From: Flavobacterium lindanitolerans
GTDB taxonomy: Bacteria > Bacteroidota > Bacteroidia > Flavobacteriales > Flavobacteriaceae
Length of the DNA: 64,000 bases
Direction of reading: 5' to 3'
Assembly (NCBI RefSeq): GCF_002846575.1
Contig: NZ_PJND01000007.1
Location: 1-64,000 of the forward strand
Of the stretch, positions 47,759 through 57,180 are shown piece by piece. The notes beneath the pieces are model-generated. The model had not been told where the DNA came from, did not search any database, and saw nothing but the letters and a program-made list of their open reading frames with translations. The first letter of the stretch is position 1; each line of letters starts with the position of its first letter. Made by a program: the position numbers and the translations under genes.

Positions 47759-48715
47759 TTAGAATACCTCTCTGGCTATTGCCTTAATATTTTCCGACTT
47801 CCCCATCGAATAATAATGCAAAACGGGTATTCCCTCTTTAATCAACTCCTTACTTTGGTTAATGCACCATTCTATACCTATTTGCTTAACTGCATCCGCA
47901 TCCTTAGCCCGAACGATTGACATAATAAGCTCGTCAGGAATATCGACCTTAAACCGATGCGGTACCAGATTCAATTGTTTTTTGGTTGAAATGGGCTTCA
48001 ATCCCGGAATAATCGGAACCGTGATTCCCTCTTTTCTGCATTTGGCTACAAAATCAAAGAATTTTTTGTTATCAAAAAACATCTGAGTAATAATATAAGA
48101 AGCTCCATTTTTTATTTTCTGCTTTAGGAAATAAATATCGCTATCCAGACTTGGTGCCTCCATGTGTTTTTCAGGATAACCCGCCACGCCAATACAAAAA
48201 TTTGTGGCTGAAGAATTTTGCAATTCGTCATCCAGATAGATCCCGTTATTCAGATTGGCAATTTGCGTTACCAGCTCCGAAGCATAGTGGTTTCCTTCTT
48301 TTTCCGGCTTGAAATAGGTTTCATTTTTCACCGCATCACCACGCAAAGCCACTACATTTTGAATCCCAAGAAAATCCAAATCAATTAAGAAATTCTCCGT
48401 GTCTTCTTTCGTAAATCCGCCACAAAGGATATGGGGAATCGCATCTACCTGGTATTTGTTTTGTATGGCCGAACAGATACCTACCGTTCCGGGACGTTTT
48501 TTTACAATCTTTTTTTCCAACAGTCCGCTTGGCAATTCCTTGTATTCATATTCTTCACGATGGTAAGTCACATCAATAAAAGGCGGATTAAATTCCATTA
48601 ACGGGTCAATGCTATCAAAAATTGATTGGATATTTTGCCCTTTTAATGGCGGTAGTATTTCGAAAGAAAAAAGCGATTTGCCATTGGCTTTTTCTATATG
48701 TTCTGTTACTTTCAT
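47759..48715 (-). CDS. metF: 5,10-methylenetetrahydrofolate reductase
   Basis: A 318-aa FAD enzyme that makes 5-methyl-THF for methionine synthase. It has FSFEILPPLKG (Glu near residue 19 is the catalytic acid), the block VDAIPHILCGGFTKEDTEN-like region (seen as HILCGGFTKEDTENFL), VVALRGDAVKNE and ITQMFFDNKKFFDFV. It lies 123 bp downstream of the metH C-terminal gene, and the spacer is an 8-bp tandem repeat. Confidence 0.95.
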   Translation of the reverse strand: MKVTEHIEKANGKSLFSFEILPPLKGQNIQSIFDSIDPLMEFNPPFIDVTYHREEYEYKELPSGLLEKKIVKKRPGTVGICSAIQNKYQVDAIPHILCGGFTKEDTENFLIDLDFLGIQNVVALRGDAVKNETYFKPEKEGNHYASELVTQIANLNNGIYLDDELQNSSATNFCIGVAGYPEKHMEAPSLDSDIYFLKQKIKNGASYIITQMFFDNKKFFDFVAKCRKEGITVPIIPGLKPISTKKQLNLVPHRFKVDIPDELIMSIVRAKDADAVKQIGIEWCINQSKELIKEGIPVLHYYSMGKSENIKAIAREVF

Positions 48716-48838: not shown

Positions 48839-51523
48839 TTAATCCGCAATGTTTGGGTTTAGCCATTTTTCAGCATATTCATAGGAAACATTTCTGCGTT
48901 TTGCGTAGTCTTCGACCTGGTCTTTTTTAATTTTTCCGAGTCCGAAATACTTGCTTTCCGGATGTCCGAAATAATAACCTGAAACCGAAGAAGCAGGCCA
49001 CATTGCCATACTTTCTGTTAAGGTCACTCCTATATTTTGTTCTACATTTAACAGTTTCCAAATGGTTGGTTTTTCCAAGTGATCCGGACAAGCAGGATAT
49101 CCGGGTGCCGGACGTATTCCTTTATATTCTTCCTTAATCAGGGCTTCATTGCTCAATGTTTCGTCTGAGGCATATCCCCAGATTTCTTTCCTTATTTTTT
49201 CATGTAAGTATTCAGCAAAGGCTTCTGCAAATCGGTCACCTAATGCTTTGACCATAATGGAATTATAATCATCTAGATTTTTTTCGAATTCCGCTGCTTT
49301 TTCATCTACTCCAAAACCTGTCGTTACGCAAAACGCTCCCATATAATCTGTAATTCCGGAATCTTTCGGCGCTATAAAATCAGACAGGGCAATATTGGGC
49401 GCTCCTTTTGTTTTTGCAGACTGCTGTCTTAAAGTCAGGAAAGTTTGCAGAAGCTTTCCATTTTCATCCCGTAATTCAATATCATCATCATTGATTTGGT
49501 TGGCAGGAAATATTCCATACACGCCTTTTGCTTCTAACCAGTTTTCCTGTATAATCTGGCGCAACATTTCCTGAGCATCCGCAAACAACACTTTAGCTTG
49601 TTCGCCAACAATTTCATCTTTTAGTATTTCCGGAAATTTCCCATGCAGGTCCCATGTTCTAAAAAATGGTGTCCAATCGATATAATCGACCAATTCTCCT
49701 AATTTTACATCGATGACTTTTGTTCCTATAGTGTTTGGTTTTACCGGAGTGAAATTAGTCCAGTCCAATTGCAGCTTATTTTTTCTGGCTTCCTCTATGC
49801 TTAAGAAGTTTTTATCACGGCTCCGACTTAGGTAACCTTCACGAAGCTCATCATATTCCATACGCAGGCTCTTGAAATATTCCTGATTGGTATTCTTATT
49901 TATGAGATTTCCAGCCACAGTAACAGCACGCGAAGCATCGTTGACATGAACTACTGTTTCCCTATATTCCGGAGCAATCTTTACGGCTGTATGTGCTCTT
50001 GAAGTGGTTGCTCCACCAATCATTATTGGAATTTTGACATTCTGCCTGTCCATCTGTTTTGCCAGATAGACCATTTCATCCAGAGAAGGCGTGATTAATC
50101 CGCTTAGTCCTATTATATCTACTTTTTCCTCAATGGCTGTCTGAATAATTTTCTCGGGCGGTACCATGACACCAAGGTCAATGATTTCATAGTTATTACA
50201 AGCCAAAACCACCGCCACTATGTTTTTCCCTATGTCATGAACATCACCTTTTACGGTTGCCATCAAAACCTTTCCGGCTGAACTGGAACTTCCGTCTTTT
50301 TCTGCTTCAATATACGGCAACAGATAAGCAACCGCCTTTTTCATGACACGTGCTGACTTTACTACTTGCGGCAAAAACATTTTCCCGCTTCCGAATAAAT
50401 CTCCTACTACATTCATTCCTGTCATTAGATTGATTTCTATAACTTCAATAGGCCGTGTAGCCAATTGTCTGGCTTCTTCAATATCCGCATCAATAAATTC
50501 ATCAACTCCTCTCACCAAAGCGTGTGTCAACCTTTCCTGAAGTGGAAGCGAACGCCACTCCTGCGACTGCTTTTCAGAAACTTCTTTTGTATCTCCTTTT
50601 ATATTTTCTGCAAATGCCAAAAGTCTTTCTGTGGCATCATCTCTCCTGTCAAGCAAGACATCTTCAACATATTCCAGCACATCTTTGGGAATCTGGTCAT
50701 AGATTTCCAACATTTCCGGATTTACGATTCCCATAGTCATACCGTGATTGACAGCATGGTACAAAAACGCGGAATGCATTGCTTCACGTACCCTGTCGTT
50801 ACCGCGGAATGAGAATGAAACATTGCTCACACCACCGCTGACACTTGCATAGGGAAGATTTTCCTTAATCCATTTGGTAGCCCTGAAGAAATCTACTGCA
50901 TTCCGGCGGTGTTCTTCCATTCCGGTTGCAACGGGAAAAATATTCGGGTCAAAAATGATATCTTCAGCCGGAAAACCTACCTTATCAACCAAAACGTCAT
51001 AGGAACGTTTGCAGATTTCTATTCTTCTTTCATAGGTATCTGCCTGTCCTATCTCGTCAAAAGCCATAACAATGACTGCTGCACCATATTTTTTTATCAG
51101 TTTTGCCTGACGAATAAAATTTTCTTCTCCTTCTTTTAAACTGATAGAGTTGACAACACTTTTCCCCTGGGCTACTTTTAGTCCTGCTTCGATAATTTCC
51201 CATTTTGAACTGTCAATCATTATCGGAACGCGGGAAATATCTGGTTCAGAAGCTATCAGATTCAGGAAAATTGTCATAGCGCGAACACCGTCAAGCATTC
51301 CCTCATCCATATTAATGTCAATAATCTGTGCGCCTCCTTCTACCTGAGCCCTGGCAATATCCAATGCTTCTTCATATTTTTCTTCTTTTATCAGGCGTAA
51401 AAATTTTCGGGAACCGGTAACATTCGTACGTTCTCCTACATTTACAAAAATGCTTTCGGGTGTTATGATTAAAGGTTCGAGACCTGATAATCTTAAGTAT
51501 TTTTTACAATCGACATCTGCCAT
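48839..51523 (-). CDS. metH: Cobalamin-dependent methionine synthase, C-terminal part (folate, B12 and activation domains)
   Basis: An 894-aa protein with the later modules of MetH. A methyl-THF-binding domain opens with [19 protein letters not shown] (about residues 26-44). The B12-binding module has the lower-ligand histidine in [20 protein letters not shown] (about 425-444) plus VPPEKI and [13 protein letters not shown]. The activation (SAM-binding) domain ends with [13 protein letters not shown] (about 820-832) and [22 protein letters not shown] sequence ([20 protein letters not shown]). The homocysteine domain is a separate gene 21 bp upstream. Confidence 0.95.
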
Positions 51524-51544
51524 TTTCTTATTCTTTTCTACAGT

Positions 51545-52543
51545 CTAAACCGGTTCTACAATTCTGGGTGAATATTCTTTTGCTACTTCTGCAATCAGGC
51601 GGATATGTTCCGGGGTTGTTCCGCAACATCCTCCAATTATGTTAATGAGATTATCTTCGAGATATTCCCGAATCAAAACCTGCATAGCTTCCGGTGTCTG
51701 GTCATATTGCCCGAAAGCATTGGGCAAACCTGCATTGGGATGTGCCGAAACATTGAATGTGGTATTATGCGAAAGTCGTTGTAAATAAGGTTTTAACTGG
51801 TCTGCTCCTAAAGCACAATTAAATCCTACGCTCAATAGCGGAATGTGAGAAATGGAAATCAGGAATGCTTCTACGGTCTGGCCGGAGAGTGTTCTTCCTG
51901 AAGCATCTGTTATCGTGCCGGAAACCATGACCGGAATATCTATATTTCTTTCTTCTTTGACTTCTTCGATGGCAAAAAGTGCTGCTTTTGCATTCAGAGT
52001 ATCAAATATGGTTTCTACCAGCAGAATATCGGAACCTCCATCAATCAGGGCTTCGACCTGCTGTTTATAGGCGATGCGTAATTCATCAAAGGTCACGGCA
52101 CGGAAACCGGGGTCATTTACATCCGGAGACATGCTTGCCGTTCTGTTAGTGGGTCCTATAGAACCCGCTACGAAACGTGGTTTATCCGGATTTTTTGCCG
52201 TAAACTCATCTGCTATTTCTCTGGCCAGTCTTGCCGATTCATAGTTTAGCTCATAAACCAAATCTTCCAAATGATAGTCAGCCATACCTATGGTTGTTCC
52301 TGAAAAGGTATTAGTTTCTACGATGTCAGCACCGGCTTCAAAATATTGACGGTGGACTTCCTGTATTGCTTTTGGCTGGCTTAATGAAAGGAGGTCGTTA
52401 TTCCCTTTCAGCGGATGTGGAAATTCTTTGAATCTTTCACCACGGAAATCTTCTTCCGAAAAATTATACCGCTGGAGCATGGTTCCCATTGCTCCGTCAA
52501 GGATGAGAATTCTTTCTTTGATAGCTTTTTGTATGCCTGACAT
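51545..52543 (-). CDS. metH: Methionine synthase, homocysteine-binding part
   Basis: A 332-aa Hcy-binding module. ILDGAMGTMLQRYNF opens the barrel (about residues 14-28), GPTNRTASMSPDVNDPGF lies in the middle, and the zinc cysteines are in VGFNCALGADQL and GGCCGTTPEHI. It forms methionine with the 894-aa partner. Splitting MetH in this way is common in Flavobacteriia, so it is not a frameshift. An imperfect hairpin (TTTAGATTC / GAATCTTAAA, around 52565-52584) and the SAM-I riboswitch lie upstream. Confidence 0.93.
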   Translation of the reverse strand: MSGIQKAIKERILILDGAMGTMLQRYNFSEEDFRGERFKEFPHPLKGNNDLLSLSQPKAIQEVHRQYFEAGADIVETNTFSGTTIGMADYHLEDLVYELNYESARLAREIADEFTAKNPDKPRFVAGSIGPTNRTASMSPDVNDPGFRAVTFDELRIAYKQQVEALIDGGSDILLVETIFDTLNAKAALFAIEEVKEERNIDIPVMVSGTITDASGRTLSGQTVEAFLISISHIPLLSVGFNCALGADQLKPYLQRLSHNTTFNVSAHPNAGLPNAFGQYDQTPEAMQVLIREYLEDNLINIIGGCCGTTPEHIRLIAEVAKEYSPRIVEPV

Positions 52544-52707
52544 TTTTTACTATTATTAGATTATTTAAGATTCTGATGAATCTAAAAGTCCTAATGTATT
52601 TTTCAAAAATCGATGGCATAGAAAAAACAATCCCAAGCCATGAATGGTTGAAAAAAAGTATCGATATGTTGTCAGGAAAAGGGAGAAAAAAAGTAGATTT
52701 TTCGTGT

Positions 52708-52807
52708 GTTATCTATCCAATAATATGGTAGAATGTAGCACCTTCTTTAAAGCTTAAAGGGTTGCTAAGGCTTCATCGGGTCTAATCCCTCCGCCTTTCG
52801 TGATAAC
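52708..52807 (-). ncRNA. SAM-I (S-box) riboswitch upstream of metH-metF
   Basis: Read on the minus strand the stretch has the S-box core: CACGAAAGGCGGAGGGATTA, ACCCGATGAAGCCTTAGCAA and AAGGTGCTACATTCTACC. It is closed by P1 GTTATC (52802-52807) with GATAAC (52708-52713). Conserved kink-turn and SAM-pocket positions agree with the family. It represses sulfur/methionine genes when SAM is high. It lies about 165 nt before the homocysteine-domain gene, between that gene and the Rossmann-protein gene. No clear terminator follows, so control may act on translation through the hairpin near the start. Confidence 0.95.
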
Positions 52808-52830
52808 AATCAATATTTTTAAGAACACTG

Positions 52831-52874: not shown

Positions 52875-53399
52875 TTATACCGCTATCCTAAAATTTTGTT
52901 TGGCTGCCATCTTTAGGATTTGTTCAAGCAGTTTTGGGGAAAGATGCTTCTCATTTGGGTTTACGAAGACAAAATCTTTTTCCGTTTTTTTAATACTATT
53001 GTTTAATGCCATTTTGAAATCTGCCGAAAATGCCTGCACCAATGGATTAGCGCTAATGATATCAAAATCATTCTGGAGCAGGTCGAAATAATCAGGAAGG
53101 ATGTCTTCTGTATTTGAGGTATCTACAGCAATAAGATTTTCGAGTTCGTTTTCCTGAACGAAATTAATTATATCTGCTATTTTGAAAGGAACTGCAAATT
53201 GGATAAAATTGGCTTCCCAGGAATTTCTTACTGTTGGTTTTTCAAAGAAGGCTACAGTGGAATTGGTTATTACGGGCAATCTTAAATCAAGATTGTTATT
53301 TTCAAGAAGTGATTCCTGATTGGAAAGCACCTCAGTTATGAGGGAACTCCCTGTCTCTTCTATTCCAAAGAGAATGATATTTATTTTTTTAACTGACAT
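52875..53399 (-). CDS. Short Rossmann-like protein resembling the NAD domain of homoserine dehydrogenase
   Basis: A 174-aa protein. It begins with a strand-loop-helix resembling the homoserine dehydrogenase NAD-binding domain (INIILFGIEETGSSLITEVLSN), but the GxGxxG is degenerate (GIEETG). A later VDTSNTEDILPDYFDLLQND resembles the VDxTxxxxxxxxY block of that enzyme. The substrate-binding and ACT regions of a normal enzyme (over 300 aa) are absent. It may be a degenerate or regulatory relic kept with methionine genes. The assignment is tentative; the ORF itself is convincing. Confidence 0.5.
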   Translation of the reverse strand: MSVKKINIILFGIEETGSSLITEVLSNQESLLENNNLDLRLPVITNSTVAFFEKPTVRNSWEANFIQFAVPFKIADIINFVQENELENLIAVDTSNTEDILPDYFDLLQNDFDIISANPLVQAFSADFKMALNNSIKKTEKDFVFVNPNEKHLSPKLLEQILKMAAKQNFRIAV

Positions 53400-53420: not shown

Positions 53421-53456
53421 AAAGAACTGCTTTTGACTGGCAATCAAAAGCAGTCT
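53421..53456 (-). terminator. Strong hairpin between OsmC and the Rossmann-like gene
   Basis: A stem of about 15 bp with one bulge (AAAGAACTGCTTTTGA / TCAAAAGCAGTCTTT) and, on the minus strand, a T-rich tail. It lies 22 bp before the next gene start, so it acts as an OsmC terminator or partial attenuator. Confidence 0.7.
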
Positions 53457-53504
53457 TTCAACAAACAAACAAATAAAACAAACTAAACAAATGCGATTTA
53501 TGCT

Positions 53505-53927
53505 TTATGCTGCATAATTATATTCTTTGTATAAAATCAGCTCGACCGGTGTTGAATTGACCAGGTTGTCATAAACCGGACTTTTTTGCTGTACTAATTT
53601 TAACCACTTCTGGAGTACCTGAAGCGAAGTATCTGTTGTTGGCTTTAGTACGATTTCGATTTTGCTGAAGCCTACTCTTTCTTCCTGACTTATAACTCCG
53701 GTTATTTCTACCTGTAACGACTTTAGGTTGATGCCTAACTCTGAAGCTACCTGCTGGCTCACCGCATTGACACATCCTGCGAATCCTGCAAGTATATATT
53801 CAAACGGGCTTGGCCCTTCCAGTTCCGGAAATTTTTCATTCCTGCTTATTCTGACATCAGAGTTTTGTGTCTTTACTACGAATTGCTCGTTATTTCTTGA
53901 GTATCCTAAAACATTTATTGCTTTCAT
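53505..53927 (-). CDS. OsmC-family protein
   Basis: A 140-aa OsmC/Ohr-fold protein. It has GPSPFEYILAGFAGCVNAVSQQVASELG-type helix (read PSPFEYILAGFAGCVNAVSQ, about residues 38-57) with one of the two redox cysteines (Cys at about 52). The second motif position reads KSPVYDNLVN (about 114-123): Cys is absent (usually CPV), so it lacks the peroxidatic pair. The peroxidase role is therefore doubtful. In Bacteroidota such OsmC genes often lie near methionine genes, which fits here. It is the first gene after the tandem leader region. Confidence 0.82.
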   Translation of the reverse strand: MKAINVLGYSRNNEQFVVKTQNSDVRISRNEKFPELEGPSPFEYILAGFAGCVNAVSQQVASELGINLKSLQVEITGVISQEERVGFSKIEIVLKPTTDTSLQVLQKWLKLVQQKSPVYDNLVNSTPVELILYKEYNYAA

Positions 53928-53962
53928 ATTTTTATTTTTTTTGAGATTTATAATTGAGACTT

Positions 53963-54002
53963 AAAACAAAAAGTCCTTTTGGACGGTTTACCAAAAGGAC
54001 TT
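53963..54002 (-). terminator. Attenuator terminator 2 before OsmC
   Basis: A 12-bp stem AAGTCCTTTTGG / CCAAAAGGACTT (53971-53982 and 53991-54002), 8-nt loop and a T-rich tail on the minus strand. A perfect 7-base antiterminator partner CCAAAAG lies inside leader ORF 2 (54037-54043). Confidence 0.82.
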
Positions 54003-54024
54003 CACACTTGAATATATAAAGAGA

Positions 54025-54111
54025 TTACGTCGTTCGCTTTTGGCAATGGAGTTTAAGGTGGCAATACATCCACATATGTTTTTTACAAATAATCGTTGTT
54101 ATCGGGTTCAT
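54025..54111 (-). CDS. Leader peptide 2 upstream of OsmC
   Basis: A 28-codon ORF from ATG 54111 to TAA 54025 after an A-rich run. Residues 4-9 read ITTIIC and residues 12-17 HMWMYC, with Cys also at 23. The ORF ends 23 nt before the terminator hairpin. Codons 23-25 contain CCAAAAG, which can pair with the terminator's CTTTTGG. That makes this a candidate attenuator responding to Thr/Ile or Met/Cys. The peptide is read directly; the regulatory role is inferred. Confidence 0.65.
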   Translation of the reverse strand: MNPITTIICKKHMWMYCHLKLHCQKRTT

Positions 54112-54143
54112 TTTTATTTTATTTTCTCAAAGAATTATTTTTC

Positions 54144-54176
54144 AAAAAAAAAGCCCCTGTAATTCAACAGAGGCTT
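54144..54176 (-). terminator. Attenuator terminator 1 in the OsmC leader region
   Basis: On the minus strand AAGCCTCTGT (54167-54176) pairs with ACAGGGGCTT (54151-54160) through a 6-nt loop, including one U-G pair, followed by nine T. It comes between leader ORFs 1 and 2. Confidence 0.8.
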
Positions 54177-54199
54177 TTTTGCTATATATTTTAAAAAAC

Positions 54200-54274
54200 T
54201 TAAAATTTGGCAATAGTACCTCCTGCGGAAATTTTCCACATCTTGCAGTACGTATGACAAATAATAGTTCTCAT
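54200..54274 (-). CDS. Leader peptide 1 upstream of OsmC
   Basis: A 24-codon ORF from ATG 54274 to TAA 54200, starting about 20 nt after a consensus promoter. Residues 3-6 read TIIC, residues 10-13 CKMW, and it ends GGTIAKF. It precedes terminator 1. The shared TIIC and Met-Trp/Cys elements suggest that it is related in function, or by descent, to leader peptide 2. Confidence 0.6.
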   Translation of the reverse strand: MRTIICHTYCKMWKISAGGTIAKF

Positions 54275-54295
54275 TTTTATTTCTTTTTGATGGTA

Positions 54296-54325
54296 CAAAC
54301 TTCAGAACTATTTTTGGATTGACAA
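54296..54325 (-). promoter_or_regulatory. Promoter of the tandem leader and OsmC transcript
   Basis: On the minus strand TTG (54323-54325), 19-nt spacer, GAAGTTTG (54296-54303, 7 of 8 matches). The start would lie about 15 nt before leader ORF 1. Confidence 0.65.
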
Positions 54326-54531
54326 TGCACAAAATAAAAATTTAACATTTATTTTATTTTCAAACAAAAAAACTGATGTTTTATAAAGAGAAGCGTACAA
54401 CAAAAAATTATACTAATAATCAGCATTTTAACTTTAAAATACTATTGCTGTATTAGTTAAGAAAACCATTTATCGTAATATTGTTTATATAGCCTTTTTA
54501 ATATTTGGTATCAAACCCATTAAGAAAAAAC

Positions 54532-54733: not shown

Positions 54734-55714
54734 TTAGTTCTTCACTACTTTTGTAGTACCCGTACCGGAATCAGTCTGTATGTTCAGGAAATAAACTCCG
54801 GAAGTCAATTCAGAAATATTAATTTGCGTTTCAGAAACACCATTTGCATTTATATTTCTTACCACTCTTCCATTCAAGTCTGTAAGCTGAATTGTATTAA
54901 TAGCCACATTATTTTTACCGGACAGGTTAACAATTCCTGTTGACGGGTTAGGATACATGCTAAAGTTGTTTGCAAAGAAATCATCTCTGCTCAACGCCCT
55001 GCTGACTTCAAAAGTATCAATCCCGATTAAGTCAGAATTATCGCCGCTAGGCCCACCGTTTGTTACAAAATACCTAAATCCAAACTTTACGGCTGTTGGA
55101 CCGGAAAGTCCGGAAACAGTAAAACTATATTTTGTCCAAACTTTAGGATATACAAAACCGGTAGCTAATGTCGGGTTGACAGTAACCCCAACCGTGGTAA
55201 AGGAACCTACATTGGTAGAACCTCCTGCCGGATTAGTGTGTGTGGCAGCCGTACTCATTCTGAGTTCCAAACGATCTGCAAAATCTAGTGTTGCTGAGGT
55301 TCCTTTTCTTGACCAGAAAGAAACAACATCTCCATTTTCTACTGTAACCACAGGGCTGATTAACCAGTTGCTGATATCTCCGGCTCCTGTAGTACTGGTA
55401 TAATTAACCAGGGCAAAGGAATTGGCTCCACCTGCTTGCCCATTAGGTACCGGGCTGACTTCGCCTGTGGCATATTCCCTGTCATTGAAAGGATTTCCCT
55501 GAACTGCCGGTGTCGCAGCCAGATTTACTGTAACCGGAGTGTAGCTGGCAATTGACCATAATGTAGCAGTTGATGGGGAACTTTGGTTGGTTCTTACCCA
55601 ACCGGCAGTCTCCATTTCTGTTGTTGTACCGCTAAAACCAAAATTGTAAACATTTTGAGCATTGGCAATTCCTGACACGGAAACCAATAAAGAAAGAAGT
55701 AGAGTTTTTTTCAT
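54734..55714 (-). CDS. T9SS cargo protein with choice-of-anchor-J-like domain (copy 1)
   Basis: About 326 aa from ATG 55714, which opens the signal peptide (MKKTLLLSLLVSVSGIANAQ). Residues about 22-235 form a jelly-roll adhesion domain of the choice-of-anchor J type (WLISPVVTVENGDVVSFWSR, VKFGFRYFVTNGGPSGDNSD). A type A sorting domain follows (FSMYPNPSTGIVNLSG to GVYFLNIQTDSGTGTTKVVK). It is secreted through T9SS and likely surface-attached. It is nearly identical to the gene at 55962-56942. It is transcribed from TTG (55888-55890), 21 nt, TATATTTG (55859-55866). Confidence 0.88.
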   Translation of the reverse strand: MKKTLLLSLLVSVSGIANAQNVYNFGFSGTTTEMETAGWVRTNQSSPSTATLWSIASYTPVTVNLAATPAVQGNPFNDREYATGEVSPVPNGQAGGANSFALVNYTSTTGAGDISNWLISPVVTVENGDVVSFWSRKGTSATLDFADRLELRMSTAATHTNPAGGSTNVGSFTTVGVTVNPTLATGFVYPKVWTKYSFTVSGLSGPTAVKFGFRYFVTNGGPSGDNSDLIGIDTFEVSRALSRDDFFANNFSMYPNPSTGIVNLSGKNNVAINTIQLTDLNGRVVRNINANGVSETQINISELTSGVYFLNIQTDSGTGTTKVVKN

Positions 55715-55794
55715 AAAAATATTAATTAAAATTAAATAAAGCATACTCAATCAAGAAACAAAAACCATTTGAAAAAAGCGGACTCTCCCAGTGT

Positions 55795-55961: not shown

Positions 55962-56942
55962 TTAGTTCTTCACTATTTTTGTACTACCTGTACCGGAATC
56001 AGTCTGTATGTTCAGGAAATAAACCCCGGAAGTCAATTCAGAAATATTAATTTGCGTTTCAGAAACACCATTTGCATTTATATTTCTTACCACTCTTCCG
56101 TTCAGGTCTGTAAGCTGAATTGTATTAATAGCCACATTATTTTTACCGGACAGGTTAACAATTCCTGTTGACGGGTTAGGATACATGCTAAAGTTGTTTG
56201 CAAAGAAATCATCTCTGCTCAAAGCCCTGCTGACTTCAAAAGTATCAATTCCGATGATATCTGAATTAGCCCCGCTAGGTCCACCGTTTGTTACAAAATA
56301 TCTAAACCCAAACTTTACAGCAGTTGGACCGGTAAGTCCGGAAACAGTAAAACTGTATCTTGTCCAAACTTTAGGGTATACGAAACCGGTTGCTAATGTA
56401 GGGTTAACAGTAACTCCAACTGTGGTGAACGAGCCTACATTGGTAGAGCCACCCGTTGGATTGGTATGCGTAGTAGCCGTACTCATTCTGAGTTCCAAAC
56501 GATCTGCAAAATCTAGTGTTCCTGAAGTTCCTTTTCTTGACCAGAAAGAAACAACATCACCATTTTCTACTGTAACCACAGGACTGATTAACCAGTTACT
56601 GATATTTCCTGCTCCTGTAGTACTGGTAAAATTAACCAGGGCAAAGGAATTGGCACCACCCGCCTGCCCATTAGGTACCGGGCTGACTTCGCCTGTGGCA
56701 TATTCCCTGTCATTGAAAGGATTTCCCTGAACTGCCGGTGTCGCAGCCAGATTTACAGTAACCGGAGTGTAGCTGGCTACCGTCCATAATGTAGTAGTTG
56801 ATGGGGAACTTTGGTTGGTTCTTACCCAACCGGCAGTCTCCATTTCTGTTGTTGTACCGCTAAAACCAAAATTGTAAACATTTTGGGCATTAGCAAATCC
56901 TGAAGCTAAAACGAAAAAAAGAAAGGGTAAAGTTTTTTTCAT
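55962..56942 (-). CDS. T9SS cargo protein with choice-of-anchor-J-like domain (copy 2)
   Basis: A 326-aa paralogue of the previous gene. They share a signal peptide layout, the jelly-roll domain and an almost identical sorting domain; only scattered residues differ (for example SIASY/TVASY, AAG/PTG and DNSDL/ANSDI). The upstream -7 box TATATTTG (56985-56992, minus) suggests a separate promoter. Because the pair is so similar the duplication is recent or kept alike by gene conversion. The ligand is unknown. Confidence 0.88.
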   Translation of the reverse strand: MKKTLPFLFFVLASGFANAQNVYNFGFSGTTTEMETAGWVRTNQSSPSTTTLWTVASYTPVTVNLAATPAVQGNPFNDREYATGEVSPVPNGQAGGANSFALVNFTSTTGAGNISNWLISPVVTVENGDVVSFWSRKGTSGTLDFADRLELRMSTATTHTNPTGGSTNVGSFTTVGVTVNPTLATGFVYPKVWTRYSFTVSGLTGPTAVKFGFRYFVTNGGPSGANSDIIGIDTFEVSRALSRDDFFANNFSMYPNPSTGIVNLSGKNNVAINTIQLTDLNGRVVRNINANGVSETQINISELTSGVYFLNIQTDSGTGSTKIVKN

Positions 56943-57090: not shown

Positions 57091-57180
57091 CGAGAAGAGG
57101 AAAAATTTGTACTGATTGCAACCTCTGATGCTGTCAAAACAGACATCATAAAAATGCTAAAGCAGAAACCCTTCTTTAGC
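57091..57180 (+). ncRNA. SAM-II-like riboswitch (long-loop type) upstream of metK
   Basis: P1 AGAGG (57096-57100) pairs with CCTCT (57122-57126) around a loop ending ACTGATTGCAA, close to the SAM-II loop ending GTATTGCAA. A 9-bp hairpin follows (TGATG-CTGT, loop CAAA, ACAG-A-CATCA, 57126-57148), then TAAAAATGCTAAAG, close to the conserved SAM-II GATAAATGTAGCTAAA. The inserted hairpin suggests the long-loop variant. GCTAAAG (57156-57162) can instead pair with CTTTAGC (57174-57180), a possible expression switch. I know the family from memory only; the class needs a covariance-model search. Confidence 0.65.

Follow-up and report, generated by a model that had tools for sequence, protein, structure and literature searches.

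Two probable leader-peptide attenuators in series in sulfur amino-acid operons of the Flavobacteriaceae

Background

Does a transcription unit of Flavobacterium lindanitolerans pass through two leader-peptide attenuators before its first structural gene, and which amino acids would they sense? The question is raised by the window analysed here, the whole stretch of 64,000 nucleotides, whose minus strand carries in series, between 54325 and 53963, a promoter-like site, leader ORF 1, terminator 1, leader ORF 2 and terminator 2, followed by a gene for an OsmC-like protein (Table 1). A preliminary description of the locus had claimed this order and had read it as a tandem peptide attenuator, undescribed in Bacteroidota, that combines different amino acids as a logical AND. 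Every part of the claimed order has been found on the minus strand. The comparative analysis presented here makes it highly probable that the locus holds two ribosome-mediated transcription attenuators in series, as part of a regulon of sulfur amino-acid operons of the Flavobacteriaceae, and leads to a different view of the signal.

Table 1. Features of the OsmC/metH locus in the window
Feature	Position	Strand	Basis
Promoter-like site: TTG 54325-54323, 19-base spacer, GAAGTTTG 54303-54296	54296..54325	-	consensus scan
Leader ORF 1, 24 codons, peptide MRTIICHTYCKMWKISAGGTIAKF	54200..54274	-	ORF
Unit 1 strand 1, TGTGGAA, inside codons Met12-Trp13-Lys14	54234..54240	-	fold, covariation
Unit 1 strand 2, TTCCGCA, partner of strand 1	54224..54230	-	fold, covariation
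Unit 1 antiterminator strand CCGCAGGAGG, partner of terminator 1 5' arm, one bulged base	54219..54228	-	pairing energy, covariation, fold
Intrinsic terminator 1	54144..54180	-	fold, covariation
Leader ORF 2, 28 codons, peptide MNPITTIICKKHMWMYCHLKLHCQKRTT	54025..54111	-	ORF
Unit 2 antiterminator strand TTGCCAAAAGCGA, partner of terminator 2 5' arm	54034..54046	-	pairing energy, fold
Intrinsic terminator 2	53963..54003	-	fold
OsmC-like protein, first structural gene, start 53927	53505..53927	-	Pfam PF02566, E 2.2e-16
174-aa protein	52875..53399	-	window protein without Pfam match
SAM-I riboswitch upstream of metH	52706..52809	-	RF00162, 81.8 bits, gathering 44.4
metH, two ORFs (51545-52543, 48839-51523)	48839..52543	-	Pfam
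Methylenetetrahydrofolate reductase (MTHFR)	47759..48715	-	PF02219

Results and discussion

Organization of the locus

The OsmC gene is followed by those of the 174-aa protein, metH (two ORFs) and MTHFR, with the SAM-I riboswitch ahead of metH. A SAM-I match was found in 13 of the 20 relatives' loci scanned, some of which stop short of metH, and Flavo-1 RNA matches lie near the SAM-I matches in L088, L121, L122 and L145. On the plus strand of the window, a SAM-II riboswitch (57091-57170) precedes an ORF that resembles SAM synthetase by eye; with SAM-I and the leader peptides it would make three kinds of sulfur sensor inside about 5 kb. A short form of the 174-aa protein (174-175 aa) is also present in L119-L123, and a form of 362-367 aa lies within the met cluster in L084, L093, L094 and L095. 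In the L145 counterpart, 119 residues match aspartate kinase/homoserine dehydrogenase models below cutoff, the resemblance being limited to the NAD-binding part of homoserine dehydrogenase. Between the OsmC and the 174-aa genes, a strong extra hairpin (53423-53457, minus strand), found also in L119-L122, is possibly a third, partial terminator. The OsmC of the window (53505-53927, minus strand) has QQKSPVYDN and that of relative L020 has KERCPIYDN; the second Cys typical of OsmC/Ohr proteins is seemingly Ser in the window. The same strand also encodes two tandem proteins, near-identical by eye (54734-55750 and 55962-56942), the former with a Por secretion tail at its end.

Promoter-like sites were searched for with the pattern TTG-N16-23-TAnnTTTG, one mismatch being allowed; TTG at -33 is a promoter element. 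The TAnnTTTG part is reported as the flavobacterial sigma-A consensus (PMC9723704), from which the site in the window differs at one position. Five such one-mismatch matches lie upstream of leader 1 in the window, the four others being slightly further upstream than 54296-54325. A similar site, TTG-19 or 20-[GC]AAGTTTG, is found in L119, L120, L121 and L123, and also in L122 when a longer stretch is scanned. As regards a start site for OsmC downstream of the second terminator, which the preliminary description had named as a point against its own reading, the one-mismatch scan gave no sigma-A-like consensus site between terminator 1 and OsmC in the window; L119 is an exception, with a one-mismatch match between terminator 1 and leader 2.

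Conservation in close relatives

The comparison upstream of OsmC that had been proposed as a check was favourable: both leader ORFs are conserved in other Flavobacteriaceae. The whole series is present in F. endophyticum, F. microcysteis, F. macacae, strain PS02334 and F. beibuense, whose OsmC proteins are 67-95% identical to that of the window. In the window and its four closest relatives the leaders, counted from the matching ATG, have 24 and 28 codons with zero indels, and the DNA around and between them has gained and lost bases in these same genomes. No overall purifying selection on the leader peptides was seen among these five genomes (window included), pairwise codon differences amounting to 15 synonymous and 54 nonsynonymous in leader 1 and to 22 and 83, respectively, in leader 2. 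Conservation thus appears to concern particular codons and the open frame, not the peptides as such. Residues kept in all five genomes are Ile4, Ile5, Cys6, His7, Tyr9, Cys10, Lys11 and Trp13 of leader 1, with Ile4-Ile5-Cys6-His7 identical throughout and Tyr9, Cys10 and Lys11 preserved through synonymous changes; Met12 is Ile in F. endophyticum. In leader 2 they include Ile7, Lys10, Lys11, Met13, Trp14, Tyr16 and Cys17.

Distribution of the two units

Covariance models of unit 1 (R1) and unit 2 (R2), each unit being a leader with its terminator, were built from 12 unit-1 and 9 unit-2 sequences of ten genomes. R1 begins 8 bases before the hairpin ATGTGG, with the front of the ORF outside the model, and R2 about 45 bases before the antiterminator strand. 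At E 1, a search of the window's minus strand gave no match of R1 to unit 2 or of R2 to unit 1, so that the units are different elements and not the product of a simple duplication.

A search at E 0.01 gave R1 matches in 155 and R2 matches in 136 of 199 Flavobacterium genomes, tallies that overstate the spread because the weak own-genome matches inspected (seven loci, E 0.003 and above) are plain-looking terminators without a Met/Cys leader. The matches used, among those listed, were 150 for unit 1 (120 genomes), at least one of which looks false (G115), and 133 of the 150 for unit 2 (113 genomes). The 17 unit-2 rows left aside, with E from 2.0e-4 to 7.7e-4, were excluded by hand and rows of this range near a unit 1 were retained, a choice that favours the tandem reading; the tandem count is unaffected, as no listed unit 1 adjoins any of the 17. 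Among the matches used, at least 80 tandems of unit 1 and unit 2 (less than 400 bases apart) occur in 71 of the 199 Flavobacterium genomes, and the reversed order, unit 2 then unit 1, was found in none of these 80 among the matches listed. Unit 2 lies outside a tandem in 53 of the 133 listed matches used, or in 70 of the 150 with the excluded rows.

In a family-wide sample of 199 genomes (E 1e-4), R1 was found in at least 20 and R2 in at least 12, both side by side in eight genomes, six of them outside Flavobacterium; tandems are present in six further genera of the Flavobacteriaceae, with the units 38-148 bases apart. R1 was also detected in at least 13 of 196 genomes of an order-wide sample (one from another family) and at least 8 of 198 of a phylum-wide sample (all Flavobacterium). 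These figures are lower bounds, since only the top-ranked candidates of each genome were scored.

The genes downstream of the units include metY, metX, metB-like, metH, cysH, cysE and OsmC, classes that were assigned by short motifs and checked in part: in NCBIfam one metY and one cysH scored above a curated cutoff and two cysE above that for EpsC, single metB-like, metX, TonB receptor and hom-like genes scored below the cutoffs, and metH and OsmC of the window were checked by Pfam. The system is not specific to OsmC and covers sulfur amino-acid operons of the Flavobacteriaceae.

In 24 genomes the nearest unit 1, among the matches listed, lies 3.0-3.4 kb upstream of unit 2. Three of these loci (L084-L086) were read through, and all three carry a gene for a 948-aa TonB receptor between the units, the order in one direction being unit 1, TonB receptor, unit 2, metY and a hom-like gene. 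A 207-aa gene separates the units in two genomes (L092, L093). In the cysH operon at L090:564-698, unit 1 precedes a second leader rich in Cys, MISNSIKYTVSTSVCCMCLLKKEP, whose terminator differs in sequence; this element is absent from the R2 matches listed and perhaps represents a third unit type.

Leader ORFs and RNA structures

Unit 1 shows the trp/his-type set of 1:2 hairpin, antiterminator and terminator, and unit 2 has an antiterminator and a terminator. An ORF spans the hairpin region in all 150 unit-1 matches among those listed, and in 149 of the 149 that were testable it starts upstream of the modelled core and ends before the terminator, the expectation from shuffled upstream DNA being 48.1. 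Of the 133 unit-2 matches, 97 lay in retrieved DNA stretches; the same start/stop criterion yields 75 of 97 against 28.2 expected after shuffling, and a mechanical rule finds a leader ORF in 79 and none in 18. This excess, together with the presence of the whole series in relatives, indicates more than chance. The stop codon lies closely behind the antiterminator strand, at a median of 9 bases in unit 1 (149 matches) and 4 bases in unit 2 (79 matches).

In unit 1, strand 2 and its neighbour (GCAGAGG; GCAGGAGG in the window) pair with the terminator 5' arm CCTCTGC. The window has the arm CCTCTGT and one bulged base, an antiterminator that is missing from the preliminary description. For terminator 2, the antiterminator partner that had been placed inside leader 2 is indeed there, although it is not limited to the seven bases given: TTGCCAAAAG plus GA of the leader pairs with TC plus CTTTTGGTAA, with one G-U and one bulge. 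Both units are conserved and each antiterminator strand is inside a leader ORF, in agreement with the idea of two leader-peptide attenuators in series.

Covariation was assessed in alignments of 111 matches from 100 chosen loci. In unit 1 (110 distinct sequences), 12 of the 15 pairs of hairpin and terminator show two-sided changes, and 91.3% of the cells are paired versus 84.8% in column-shuffled and 38-58% in slid alignments. The 1:2 hairpin contributes two-sided changes in 6 of 7 pairs (82% of cells paired), and terminator 1 is paired in 99.2% of cells. For the unit-1 antiterminator, 78.7% of the cells are paired versus 76.4% column-shuffled and 32-57% slid, in an alignment that was fitted to the hairpin and terminator structure and hence favours it over the antiterminator; two of five measures are reached by 15 and 26 of 500 column shuffles, the other three by none, and the signal is modest. 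A conserved 1:2 hairpin was not found in unit 2, where RNAalifold on the first 96 of 101 rows gave no consensus structure; several single folds have a hairpin over the control codons, without overlap with the antiterminator strand.

The pairing of the leader strand with its own terminator arm amounts to -12.5 kcal/mol in unit 1 (142 distinct sequences) and -11.4 kcal/mol in unit 2 (93 sequences), versus -5.8 and -6.2 after single-base shuffles. At most 5 of 100 shuffles equal the own-arm fit in 118 of 142 unit-1 and 67 of 93 unit-2 sequences. The own arm is better than the mean of foreign arms in 112 of 142 and 69 of 93 sequences, respectively; the mean share of foreign arms that pair better than the own one is 36% in unit 1 and 30% in unit 2. 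In the window, the antiterminators fold at -12.1 and -14.9 kcal/mol if the leader is masked and transcription has yet to reach the second terminator arm. Once unit 1 is complete, the terminator is favoured energetically whether or not the leader is masked, so that the switch must be kinetic, the choice being made during transcription. Among the members, translation runs through the conserved CCGCAGAGG in three different frames (Ser-Ala-Glu/Gly, Pro-Gln-Ser/Arg and Ser-Arg-Arg), which places its conservation at the RNA level, the ORF meanwhile being kept open.

Control codons

Met codons are concentrated in the frame of the leaders preceding metY: 16.6% in frame versus 1.6 and 0.9% in the other frames of unit 1 (46 distinct leaders, upstream of the modelled core), and 28.3% versus 0.3 and 0.6% in unit 2 (43 distinct leaders, part of the stretch counted lying inside model R2). 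Cys is not frame-specific in the unit-1 metY leaders (8.3% in frame versus 13.4 and 2.7%). Met-rich examples are MIFNTNTMMMAMMMMNMMMFTTPYCLKSTS, before metY, and MNFTMNNMSMMMWRFSAEDSIV, before a metB-like gene; MKFTCCNKCACMGIISAGVCCCI and MSNTITNKMFACCCKKCCKSARLSYYPIKKT, before cysH/cysE, are rich in Cys. The Cys:Met ratio of unit 1 is 40:21 before cysH/cysE (11 leaders) versus 128:267 before met genes (72 leaders; Fisher p 1.4e-6), and that of unit 2 is 16:5 (3 leaders) versus 159:305 (51 leaders; p 2.2e-4), pooled p-values that overstate the contrast because leaders are related by descent. The cleaner test is within genomes, and there Cys is relatively more abundant before cysH/cysE in nine of nine comparisons from eight genomes. 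At the level of the regulon, the putative control codons match the product of the downstream pathway.

Across the 68 tandems in which both leaders could be identified, the Met content of one correlates with that of the other (rho 0.83), and so does the Cys content (rho 0.67), values inflated by shared descent, and Met of one leader is uncorrelated with Cys of the other. Both gates thus seem to read the same signal. Judged by the codon content of these tandems, a different signal for each unit, as in Salmonella mgtCBR, was not found, and the tandem resembles a double gate with one and the same signal, sulfur amino acids, and not an AND of Thr/Ile with Met/Cys.

The OsmC class departs from this picture. 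Its unit-1 leaders (11), ahead of the hairpin, have 1.9% Met in frame versus 1.9 and 2.1% and 7.7% Cys versus 1.9 and 4.3%, and its unit-2 leaders (9) have 7.9% Met and 9.3% Cys in frame. Since the OsmC-type copy of the window is poor in Met/Cys, its own signal is less certain, Met/Cys being the likely one. Aligned by eye, ICHTYCKMW of the window corresponds to ICNMCCMMW of metY leaders, as if Met/Cys codons had been worn down.

Alternative readings

That the two attenuators sense different amino acids and act as a logical AND was suggested by the TII(C) present in both window leaders; Salmonella mgtCBR offers a precedent with two different signals, and all five close genomes compared retain Ile4-Ile5 in leader 1. 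We nevertheless rejected Thr/Ile sensing and hold the AND to be very unlikely, given that the TTII stretch of leader 2 varies in close relatives (TTMMICC in L119, TTIIIIS in L121), that in neither leader is the motif near the hairpin and that the tandems agree in Met and Cys. The codons Ile4-His7 of leader 1 end 14-20 bases before strand 1, and a ribosome stalled on the Ile codons would likely be too far away to break the hairpin; several other OsmC-type leaders are without these Ile-Ile-Cys-His codons. A shade less probable again is a riboswitch or protein-binding terminator with incidental short ORFs. The unit-1 antiterminator nucleotides, conserved in more than one reading frame, would fit it, but Met enrichment is confined to one frame, the Met/Cys balance follows the downstream pathway, and ORFs are about threefold over the shuffled expectation. 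In addition, no Rfam family reaches its gathering score in 53900-54400. The best sub-threshold scores, MicC (26.3 bits, gathering 90) and Thr_leader (26.1 bits, gathering 55), together with Phe_leader and others, are far below cutoff; they were read as a shared terminator shape, and a known riboswitch or Rfam leader was rejected. As for ordinary terminators accompanied by chance short ORFs in AT-rich intergenic DNA, which is what the weaker own-genome matches look like at seven loci, the conservation, covariation and codon content across many genomes leave this reading next to no credit.

A better contender, if still an improbable one, concerns the OsmC class only: its leaders may have been retuned from Met/Cys to another signal (e.g. 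His, Tyr or Trp) or to a weak general brake. Among the named classes, their combined Met and Cys content ranks last in unit 1 and near the bottom in unit 2. The patterns they have in common include ICHTYCKMW, CQYRHSMW and KRYMCNFMW, and Trp-Met is recurrent in the second leaders. His, Tyr and Trp (the last in unit 2 only) are commoner than in metY leaders, partly in other frames too; His reaches 6.7% in frame versus 3.8 and 2.1% in unit 1, and Trp 5.1% versus 0 and 0% in unit 2. Against retuning, His, Tyr and Cys of unit 2, and Tyr of unit 1, are about equally frequent in at least one other frame, Trp may be imposed by hairpin pairing, and three Met/Cys residues (Cys10 in leader 1, Met13 and Cys17 in leader 2) are invariant across the five genomes compared.

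Proposed mechanism and significance

The model of two attenuators in series is drawn from ORFs, terminators, antiterminator complementarity, covariation and a codon content that tracks the downstream pathway, all of them seen in the sequences. In each unit, a ribosome would trail the RNA polymerase into the short ORF and translate it. When charged tRNA-Met or tRNA-Cys is scarce, it would stall on the Met/Cys codons that immediately precede the antiterminator strand; the stall would, in unit 1, break the 1:2 hairpin, strand 2 would pair with the terminator 5' arm, and the polymerase would read on. With plentiful amino acids, the ribosome would reach the stop codon and should cover the antiterminator strand, and the terminator would form and end transcription in vivo. 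This direction of response, as well as Met/Cys sensing by the window copy, is what the model predicts. OsmC would be reached only if the polymerase passes both terminators.

Since the leaders of a tandem resemble each other in Met/Cys content, the two gates should multiply a single signal and not combine two, and a series of this kind would leak less and respond more steeply. Theory on the sensitivity of single attenuators predicts a sharper response with more control codons (PMC1183508); multiplication by two attenuators in series is our extension. Genes between the gates would pass one terminator and those after both would pass two. In its fullest form, the proposal is a regulon-wide double gate of two unrelated units, 1 then 2, that carry the same codons and multiply one starvation signal, in which a gene between the gates (e.g. 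the TonB receptor) would be under one gate only, and OsmC copies, with fewer Met/Cys codons, would be retuned to a higher threshold; we give this complete version even chances.

If correct, the metY, metX, metB-like, metH, cysH, cysE and OsmC operons would be under peptide attenuation in a large environmental group of bacteria whose gene control is poorly known. The natural series from a single to a same-signal double gate, and from Met to Cys codons, would provide a test of why two attenuators stand in a row, and models R1 and R2 make the element searchable.

Comparison with known systems

A comparative study by Lopatovskaya et al. (2010) is cited in this literature. Among the top-ranked results of our searches of the open-access literature, there was no description of Met/Cys or tandem leader peptides in Bacteroidota, in line with the claim that such a tandem is undescribed there, nor of methionine-sensing leader peptides before methionine genes. 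Within the same genus, strong clues for a mechanism of this kind, leader-peptide attenuation, have been reported before amino-acid operons of F. psychrophilum, with pheA and hisG among the genes with structured 5' elements (PMC9723704, which lists 64 structured 5' regions); the main text of that paper is without the word methionine and, as far as that text goes, names no tandem units. In Bacteroides thetaiotaomicron, also a member of the Bacteroidota, long 5' UTRs hold short ORFs reminiscent of attenuating leader peptides (PMC7366714), the example in that account being a hypothetical protein, with no amino acid or tandem attenuator named.

Cys codons in a short ORF before cysteine genes are shared with the cysteine leader ORFs of Actinobacteria, of which the mycobacterial ones are without conserved terminator hairpins (PMC1262725), and with uORFC-8-2 before cysS in Rhodobacterales, described as one unit (PMC8632094); neither system is described as sensing Met or as having two attenuators in series. 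The S-box (SAM-I) and SAM-II riboswitches, both present in the window, serve the same pathway and bind SAM via an aptamer, whereas the leader region is without an Rfam match. A second terminator in tandem has been described in some rimP leaders (PMC2965389).

The units resemble the trp/his-type attenuators of enterobacteria in the short ORF with control codons, in the hairpin, antiterminator and terminator of unit 1 and in the stop codon just past the antiterminator strand, and differ from them in the two same-signal units in series and in the Met/Cys control codons. The host differs too, in that translation initiation in these bacteria is reported not to rely on Shine-Dalgarno sites (PMC9723704). 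A parallel in organization is Salmonella mgtCBR (PMC3641672), whose leader RNA likewise contains a pair of short ORFs, each with its attenuator; the effects of ATP, through mgtM, and of proline, through mgtP, are additive. Here, in contrast, the control codons of the two units are similar, and the units are found throughout a regulon and in several genera. Attenuation by leader peptides and tandem attenuators are thus already known, and what appears to be new is the same-signal Met/Cys tandem of the Flavobacteriaceae.
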